A stretch of DNA of 64,000 nt. It comes from Siccirubricoccus sp. G192. GTDB lineage: Bacteria; Pseudomonadota; Alphaproteobacteria; Acetobacterales; Acetobacteraceae. Shown one piece after another: positions 42,174-44,458 of this stretch; within the stretch, counting starts at the first letter, position 1; every line of letters starts with the position of its first letter. The notes below the pieces were generated by a model. That model did no database searches. It was given only the letters and a program-made list of their open reading frames with translations, and was not told where the DNA came from. The position numbers were made by a program, and so were the translations under genes. The DNA is taken from positions 4,552,501 through 4,616,500 of the forward strand of contig NZ_JAHREN010000001.1 in the NCBI RefSeq assembly GCF_019084075.1, in the 5' to 3' direction.

Positions 42174-42941
42174 TCAGACCGGCCGCACCCCGCGCGTCAC
42201 CGCCTGGTAGGTGGCCACCGCGAGGGTGGTGGGGTCGAAGGGCTTGGTGATGACGAAGGCCGGCTCCACCGCCTCGCCGGTCAGCAGCCGCTCCGGATAG
42301 GCGGTGACGAAGATCACCGGCGCCGTCACATGCCGCAGGATCCGCGCCACCGCGCTCGCCCCGTCGCCGCCGGCGCCGAGGTTGATATCGGCCAGCACCA
42401 GGCCGGGCCGCTCCGCCCGGGCGATCTCCACCGCCTCCGCCTCGGTGGCGGCGATGCCGACCACGCTGTGGCCGCAGCGTTCCACGAGTTCCTGGATGTC
42501 GAGGGCGATGATCGGCTCATCCTCGATGATGAGCACCCGCGTGGCGGCGCCGGTCCGCAGCCCGTCCCGCGCCAGGTGCAGTTCCAGCTCCGCCGCCTCG
42601 GTGCCGATCCGGCAGGCGGCGGCGGCGGCCACCAGCGGCTGCTCCTCGAGCGCGGTCAGCAGCAGCAGCATCCGTTGCAGCAGCGACATGCCGTCCGTGA
42701 GGCTGGCCGCGGTGCCCTCCCGCTCCGGCGCCGTGGCGCGGACCTCGTCGCCGATCGCGCCATAGAGAGCCGTGCGCGCCGCCGCATCGGCGGTGAGGTC
42801 GGTGCCGGGTTCGGCGAGCACGCGCCGCAGGGCATCGGCCACCACCGAATCGCCCTGGCTCTGGCTGCCGGTCAGGGCCCGGGCATAGCGCCGGGCATAG
42901 GGAAGGGCGCGGATCAGTGCGGCCCGGTCGATGGCGCTCAT
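42174..42941 (-). CDS. phyR: PhyR-type general stress response regulator
   Basis: This 255-residue regulator has an N-terminal ECF-sigma-like domain (about residues 1-125) and a C-terminal receiver domain (about 133-250). The receiver shows acidic residues in VLIIEDEPIIALD, the phosphorylated Asp in LVLADINLGAGGDG, the PhyR-type motif VTAYPERLLTG and the Lys in VITKPFDP. When phosphorylated, PhyR sequesters the anti-sigma factor NepR and frees EcfG. The gene diverges from two sigma-factor genes, the usual alphaproteobacterial arrangement. Confidence 0.94.
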   Translation of the reverse strand: MSAIDRAALIRALPYARRYARALTGSQSQGDSVVADALRRVLAEPGTDLTADAAARTALYGAIGDEVRATAPEREGTAASLTDGMSLLQRMLLLLTALEEQPLVAAAAACRIGTEAAELELHLARDGLRTGAATRVLIIEDEPIIALDIQELVERCGHSVVGIAATEAEAVEIARAERPGLVLADINLGAGGDGASAVARILRHVTAPVIFVTAYPERLLTGEAVEPAFVITKPFDPTTLAVATYQAVTRGVRPV

Positions 42942-43059
42942 CGCCTTGTCATCCTTCACAGGCGTCGGACATCCTCGCCGTGGTCCGATCAGGTTGATAT
43001 TGAGCGCCGGGTGAACCAGCAAGCCATGGATAGGGGGGCTACGCGTCTCGCTCGCGGGA

Positions 43060-43512
43060 TTGTTGCCGGAGCTTCGCGCCTTCGCGCGGTTCCTCGCGGG
43101 ATCGCGCGCCGAAGCGGATGACCTGGTGCAGGAGGCGCTGGCGCGGACCCTGCGCGCCCTGGATGGGCGTTCGGACGACGTCGATCTCAAGGCATGGTGC
43201 CTCGCGGTGATCCGCAACGTCTTCCATGAGCAATTGCGGTCACGCCGGCGCGAGGCGGCGCGGTTGCAGGCGGCGGGCGAGCCGGAGCCGAGCCCGGCCA
43301 TGCAGGAGGTGCCCGGCCAGATGCGCGACCTGGCGCGCGGCATCGCCGGCCTGCCGCCATTGCTGCGGGAGGCGCTGGTGCTGGTCGGCGCGCAGGGGCT
43401 CTCCCATGAGGAGGCGGCCAAGGTCTGCGGCGTCCCGGTCGGCACCATGAAGGCCCGCGTCTCGCGCGCCCGCCGCCAGCTCGCTGTCGCTCTCGACCGT
43501 GTGACGGGATAA
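43060..43512 (+). CDS. ECF sigma factor (EcfG/Sigma70 region 2-4)
   Basis: This is a sigma factor of about 150 residues with region 2 (LAGSRAEADDLVQEALARTL) and region 4 (LPPLLREALVLVGAQGLSHE, then GTMKARVSRARRQL). As written it begins at TTG codons near 43060, because the only upstream ATG (43026) is out of frame. A run of six G at 43033-43038 lies between them. Losing one G would give MDRGLRVSLAGLLPELRAF, a more natural N-terminus. It lies opposite PhyR and 70 bases before a second sigma gene, so it is probably part of the general stress cluster. Confidence 0.85.
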   Translation: MLPELRAFARFLAGSRAEADDLVQEALARTLRALDGRSDDVDLKAWCLAVIRNVFHEQLRSRRREAARLQAAGEPEPSPAMQEVPGQMRDLARGIAGLPPLLREALVLVGAQGLSHEEAAKVCGVPVGTMKARVSRARRQLAVALDRVTG

Positions 43513-43582
43513 CGCCAGCGCGATGCAACCCTCCGCCGCTGCCGATCATTGGTCTGCAGTGGATCAAGAGGGGACCAGCCTG

Positions 43583-44458
43583 ATGGATGGAATGACAGCG
43601 ACGACGCCGCAGCCGACCGAAGCCCGTGGCGGCCGCAAGGAATTCCACGGACAACTGGTCGCGCTGCTGCCGAAGCTGCGGGTGCAGGCCCTGGCCTTGA
43701 CGCGCAACCGCGCCGCGGCCGAGGACCTGGTGCAGGATGCGGTGGCGAATGCGCTGGCCGCGCAGGACAGCTTCACGCCGGGCACCAATTTCGCCGCCTG
43801 GATGCACCGCATCCTGCGCAACCGCTTCATCAGCACGCTCCGCAAGCAGCGCGAGACCACCGATATCGAGGACCTGCCGATGTCCGCCTTCGCGGTGAGC
43901 GCCGCGCATGAGGACCGGATGGTGCTGAAGGAGCTGGGTGTCGCCCTGAACCGGCTGCCCTCCGATCAGCGCGAGGCGCTGTTCATGGTGGTGCTGCAGG
44001 GGCTTTCCTATGAGGAAGTGGCGCAGGCGACCGGCTGCGCCGTCGGCACGGCCAAGAGCCGCGTCTTCCGCGCCCGGCGGCAGTTGCAGACCTGGCTGAT
44101 GGGCGAGGAGCGGCACGGGCCGCAGCCGACGCCGCGGTCCGAGCGGTCTGAGGTGATCGGTATTGGCGAAGTCCGTGCGGGAGTCCAAGGTGCAATGATG
44201 CGGAGCGAGGCGGCGGTCCTGGAACGGATCGCCGCCATCCCGGCCTCGGCGGCAGGGGCCATGGGCGATACGGACGAGAAGCAACCAGGCGAGCCGGGCA
44301 AGGCGCCCAGGGAACCGGAACCGGGGGGGGTGGATAACGCCTTCGACCTCTGGCTTCGCCGCGGCCTGCACCAGCTCTACGATACGGTGGCGAAGGAGCC
44401 GATTCCCGAGGATCTCCTGCGCATGATCGAGGAGGACCGCACCTCACGCGAGGAGTGA
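43583..44458 (+). CDS. EcfG-like sigma factor with a NepR-like C-terminal extension
   Basis: Residues about 20-172 form an EcfG-type sigma factor: region 2 TRNRAAAEDLVQDAVANAL and WMHRILRNRFISTLRKQRE, region 4 LPSDQREALFMVVLQGLSYE and GTAKSRVFRARRQLQ. After a roughly 75-residue linker the frame ends with FDLWLRRGLHQLYDTVAKEP and IPEDLLRMIEED, which match NepR, the anti-sigma factor of EcfG. A separate NepR of 65 residues could start at ATG 44261 in the same frame, or at 44197 behind AAGGTG. I chose ATG 43583 behind GAGGGG. It is either a true sigma/anti-sigma fusion or two genes joined by an indel removing the sigma stop. Confidence 0.87.
   Translation: MDGMTATTPQPTEARGGRKEFHGQLVALLPKLRVQALALTRNRAAAEDLVQDAVANALAAQDSFTPGTNFAAWMHRILRNRFISTLRKQRETTDIEDLPMSAFAVSAAHEDRMVLKELGVALNRLPSDQREALFMVVLQGLSYEEVAQATGCAVGTAKSRVFRARRQLQTWLMGEERHGPQPTPRSERSEVIGIGEVRAGVQGAMMRSEAAVLERIAAIPASAAGAMGDTDEKQPGEPGKAPREPEPGGVDNAFDLWLRRGLHQLYDTVAKEPIPEDLLRMIEEDRTSREE

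Follow-up and report, generated by a model that had tools for sequence, protein, structure and literature searches.

Apparent recent loss of the ecfG stop codon places an EcfG sigma factor and its anti-sigma factor NepR in one open frame in Siccirubricoccus sp. G192

In the stretch of 64,000 nucleotides of Siccirubricoccus sp. G192 analysed here (the window), the genes of the sigma factor EcfG and of the anti-sigma factor NepR are read as a single open frame, and we have seen such a sigma/NepR fusion in this one genome only. From the comparison with relatives, this appears to be a recent stop loss, particular to a single genome, that joins two known genes, the parts being ordinary and the arrangement unusual. 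We favour, with a probability of about 65%, the explanation that loss of the ecfG stop codon has fused ecfG and nepR in this lineage, and that the product would be a tethered, self-inhibited sigma factor that PhyR can open.

Identity of the fused frame

The frame runs uninterrupted on the forward strand from 43583 to 44458 and encodes 291 amino acids; in this assembly, and in this one only, no stop separates the sigma and NepR domains. It extends formally upstream to an ATG at 43523, but relatives conserve the start at 43583 (MDGM). Pfam places sigma70 region 2 at residues 28-90 (PF04542, E 1.7e-13) and region 4 at residues 117-168 (PF08281, E 3e-17), both above their cut-offs. With these two regions and its linkage to phyR and nepR (Table 1), the sigma half is an EcfG (ECF15)-type sigma factor. 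The Pfam NepR match, at residues 260-282, scores 20.5-22.9 bits (E 3.6e-4 to 6.4e-5), below the curated cut-off of 25.7. We nevertheless consider its identification as NepR well supported by comparison, since this model gives 20.6-28.0 bits to the free NepR proteins of close relatives, since the only PDB sequence match of this segment, a weak one, is Caulobacter NepR (3T0Y, E 0.69), and since the sigma half is closest, in sequence (5UXX_A) as well as in fold, to the Bartonella RpoE(EcfG) that was co-crystallised with NepR. The first-pass annotation had described one frame holding sigma regions 2 and 4, a linker and a NepR-like segment, a reading that the Pfam and PDB matches bear out. A run of eight G lies at 44324-44331, just 5' of the NepR core; its length preserves the frame here, although slippage or sequencing errors are likely at such a site.

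The structure of the fused product was predicted with AlphaFold2, using an alignment of 33 relatives in which, for this purpose only, the stop was read as Gln. The model (mean pLDDT 65, pTM 0.37) has an ECF fold at residues 11-172, an unstructured stretch at 173-248 and NepR helices at 249-271 and 276-288, and in fold it comes closest to the sigma chain of 5UXX. At this pTM, NepR is not confidently docked onto the sigma domains. In principle, the modelled linker of about 76 residues would be long enough for NepR to contact the sigma domains of the same protein.

Table 1. Coordinates of the features discussed, in positions of the window
Feature	Position	Strand	Evidence
phyR, response regulator anti-anti-sigma factor, divergent from the sigma genes	42174..42941	-	NCBIfam NF006623, 264 bits vs cut-off 240; Pfam
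Second ECF sigma factor, upstream; frame starts earlier in relatives	43060..43512	+	Pfam; comparison with relatives
ecfG, EcfG/ECF15-type sigma factor, regions 2 and 4 and a C-terminal tail of about 29 residues	43583..44185	+	Pfam; relatives end here with TAA/TAG
Remnant of presumed nepR promoter: TTGGCG 44163-44168, 17 nt spacer, CAAGGT 44186-44191	44163..44191	+	Column conservation, 42 relatives
CAA codon (Gln202) in the column of the relatives' ecfG stop TAA/TAG; T to C at 44186	44186..44188	+	Alignments of relatives
Original 5' leader of nepR, read as linker in the fused frame, with in-frame ATGs 44195 and 44198	44189..44260	+	No codon periodicity; frame-shifting indels between stop and NepR in some relatives
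nepR, anti-sigma factor NepR, native start ATG 44261, core FDLWLRRGLHQLYDTVAKEPIPEDLLRMIEED	44261..44458	+	Invariant Met; codon periodicity; Pfam NepR

Apparent loss of the ecfG stop codon in a single genome

In GTDB genomes we found 78 named loci, among them those of Roseicella, Dankookia, Paracraurococcus, Belnapia, Siccirubricoccus, Falsiroseomonas and Acetobacter, and the addition of further genomes brought the set to 80 distinct loci of Acetobacteraceae/Roseomonadaceae, the window included. At all 79 others, the sigma frame terminates soon after region 4, and before NepR wherever NepR was found; nepR was not seen in the stretch examined at three loci (L063, L079 and L115). One of these, L079 (contig 37 of Dankookia rubra), is an additional ecfG copy, downstream of which no nepR was detected. 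The first-pass annotation had named a sigma stop before 44194 with a separate nepR in orthologues as the result that would speak against a fusion, and such a stop is what the other 79 distinct loci have, at 44186-44188 in the close clade. There, the TAA or TAG aligns with the CAA of the window and the difference amounts to one T to C change; the native ecfG would thus end at 44188. The full-length matches in the closest genomes have exactly one internal stop each, and among 397 genomes of the family there was no further full-length frame that lacked a stop. In two of the family's genomes (G087 and G298), long open frames had been listed without a stop; they belong to loci of the set above, which have a stop and carry nepR in another frame.

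The two genes share a reading frame in most close relatives, so that one base change is enough to join them, while indels shift nepR out of the ecfG frame at four loci (L073, L074, L075 and L157). Among the long NepR frames checked in a class-wide sample no sigma/NepR fusion was found, the two proteins always being encoded in different frames.

The event appears recent, because the end branch of the window in a tree of the sigma domains has zero length, beside Roseicella, and because the free NepR of Roseicella matches the NepR core at up to 93% identity. The same two observations indicate that both halves are still constrained, and nothing in these sequences suggests long co-evolution as a fusion, nor decay.

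A promoter-like element that overlaps the stop codon

The stop codon of the relatives seems to have a second function. When 42 relatives are aligned on it, a TTGGCGA island that starts 23 nt upstream is conserved at all codon positions, the third included; it is followed by a poorly conserved spacer and by TA(A/G)NNT, of which the stop codon forms the first three bases. The whole element, TTGGCGA-N16-TA(A/G)NNT, is present in most of the 42 aligned loci (for example at 3093-3121 of L040), and the stops at the loci that carry it are TAA or TAG, never TGA. Read as TTGGCG-N17-TARNNT, it has the spacing of a sigma70-type promoter. The element is apparently a promoter of nepR's own, in which the stop codon would open the -10 box. 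If the stop also serves in a -10 box, this would explain the avoidance of TGA at the loci that carry the element, and it would couple the two effects of the change in the window: the T to C at 44186 takes away the stop codon and the T of the putative -10 box together. Indeed, no TANNNT hexamer is found in the window between 44100 and 44262. A generic sigma70 scan of the region gave no match; such a scan would miss the element of the relatives as well, because only 8 of its 12 bases match the consensus.

Autoregulation of ecfG is usual, and it is not a defining property. It is absent from M. extorquens (PMC4814048). In the window, no EcfG-type promoter (GAAC-N16,17-C/GGTT) was found near ecfG or phyR.

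The native start of nepR

Across 19 loci aligned by codon, the NepR core has the periodicity of a coding sequence, with differences of 0.23/0.12/0.44 at codon positions 1/2/3, and the stretch 44195-44260 has none (0.29/0.35/0.36). The Met at 44261 is invariant in all 19 loci. Since the upstream stretch shows no coding periodicity and this Met is invariant, the native start of nepR is most likely the ATG at 44261, and what precedes it would be a leader that is read as linker if the fusion is made. A start at 44195 or 44198 was considered since most close relatives preserve the frame from the stop to NepR; it was rejected for the two reasons just given and because the ATG is missing in L044, L057 and Falsiroseomonas. 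The earlier proposal that free NepR may also come from in-frame ATGs is thus plausible for 44261 and fails for the upstream ATGs as native start. Of the two positions that it gave, 44197 and 44261, the latter is correct, the actual in-frame ATGs being 44195, 44198 and 44261.

Proposed mechanism and rival explanations

The open frame, the stop present in all relatives, the aligned codon and the conserved promoter-like element are all observed; our reading further supposes that the base has been called correctly, and that the cell accumulates a fusion protein which inhibits itself and responds to PhyR. The T to C change at 44186 would have turned TAA, possibly derived from an older TAG, into CAA, and the joining would have been possible because nepR is, by chance, in frame with the ecfG stop and with its own entire leader. 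The product would consist of EcfG, a disordered linker of about 76 residues and NepR. At high local concentration, NepR would bind its own sigma domains and keep the sigma factor inactive, until PhyR, once phosphorylated, competes for the tethered NepR. Free NepR, initiated internally at ATG 44261, may contribute. The same change would damage the putative nepR promoter and thereby tie the supply of NepR to the expression of ecfG. We offer only tentatively, as a doubtful extension, the full scenario in which a single natural transition at 44186 converted a two-gene partner switch into one tethered sigma/anti-sigma protein, still opened by PhyR, with the stop and the T of the -10 box lost together.

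The main rival is a sequencing or assembly error, the true codon being TAA and the genes being separate as in the relatives, because the neighbouring ECF sigma gene upstream appears to carry an additional G. Compared with the Roseicella and Paracraurococcus loci, it has one base more, at a run of six G (43034-43039), a typical error site; this breaks its conserved start and is either a frameshift or a sequencing error. Moreover, the stop is missing at no other locus, and the assembly (3 contigs) is 94.7% complete, against 97-100% for most close relatives. However, the change at 44186 is a substitution outside any homopolymer, while the suspected error next to it is a homopolymer indel, and no frame break was seen in the other genes compared across about 7 kb of synteny. 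We therefore regard an error as unlikely. We also find it improbable that the stop loss is real and the fusion a neutral or decaying side product, with stress sigma genes at this locus degenerating while an EcfG on contig 2 and other NepR paralogues do the work. This second EcfG (contig 2, of 297 kb, 141875-142354) is 68% identical, and five more NepR paralogues lie at 147452-147583 of contig 2 and at 898929, 2932002, 4140498 and 4996226 of contig 1; with these copies, the locus may be dispensable and a change there tolerated, and the possible frameshift in the adjacent sigma gene would fit. Against this, the zero-length sigma branch and the intact NepR core give no visible sign of relaxed constraint. 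No close relative of the contig 2 locus was found in the plasmid collection, and Methylobacterium also has several EcfG and NepR copies, with distinct roles (PMC4814048).

As for an ancestral, conserved self-inhibited sigma/anti-sigma protein, only the open frame speaks for it, and its probability is negligible: a conserved fusion system is ruled out by the stop at 79 of the 79 other distinct loci, the fusion not being kept in orthologues, and the long NepR frames of the class-wide sample point the same way. The self-inhibited switch that the first-pass annotation had suggested is thus not an established one; a stop loss in one genome, with a tethered product, remains our preferred reading.

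Relation to known systems

The locus resembles the EcfG-NepR-PhyR partner switch of the general stress response of Alphaproteobacteria in that all three parts are found together, with phyR divergent, and in that the sigma part matches the sigma chain of 5UXX in sequence and fold. It differs from it in the presence of sigma and anti-sigma in one frame, in the local order, ecfG followed by nepR, and in the apparent separate nepR promoter of the relatives.

The earlier statement that NepR is a separate protein in known systems is correct for every relative examined and needs a qualification for Methylobacteriaceae, in which EcfG has a NepR-like N-terminal extension that was interpreted as an ancient ecfG/nepR fusion; in vitro, free NepR was bound only by a truncated form of Methylobacterium EcfG (PMC4814048). 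Both proteins thus link EcfG covalently to a NepR-like segment, but the Methylobacterium extension is N-terminal, about 55 residues long, ancient and family-wide, whereas here a complete NepR is C-terminal, and the event is apparently recent and limited to one genome. In the open-licence PubMed Central papers that we searched, we found no complete C-terminal NepR on an EcfG. Other sigma and anti-sigma factors are also joined in one polypeptide, as in IutY of Pseudomonas putida (ECF243) and in ECF48, ECF52, ECF53 and ECF36 (PMC8999054). In those, however, the anti-sigma parts are membrane-anchored and activation is proteolytic, as known or predicted, whereas NepR is soluble and released by PhyR. 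If real, the fusion described here would be a natural experiment on the origin of sigma/anti-sigma fusions, from adjacent in-frame genes and one base change, and it would put to the test the ability of PhyR to free a sigma factor from a NepR that is covalently attached to it.
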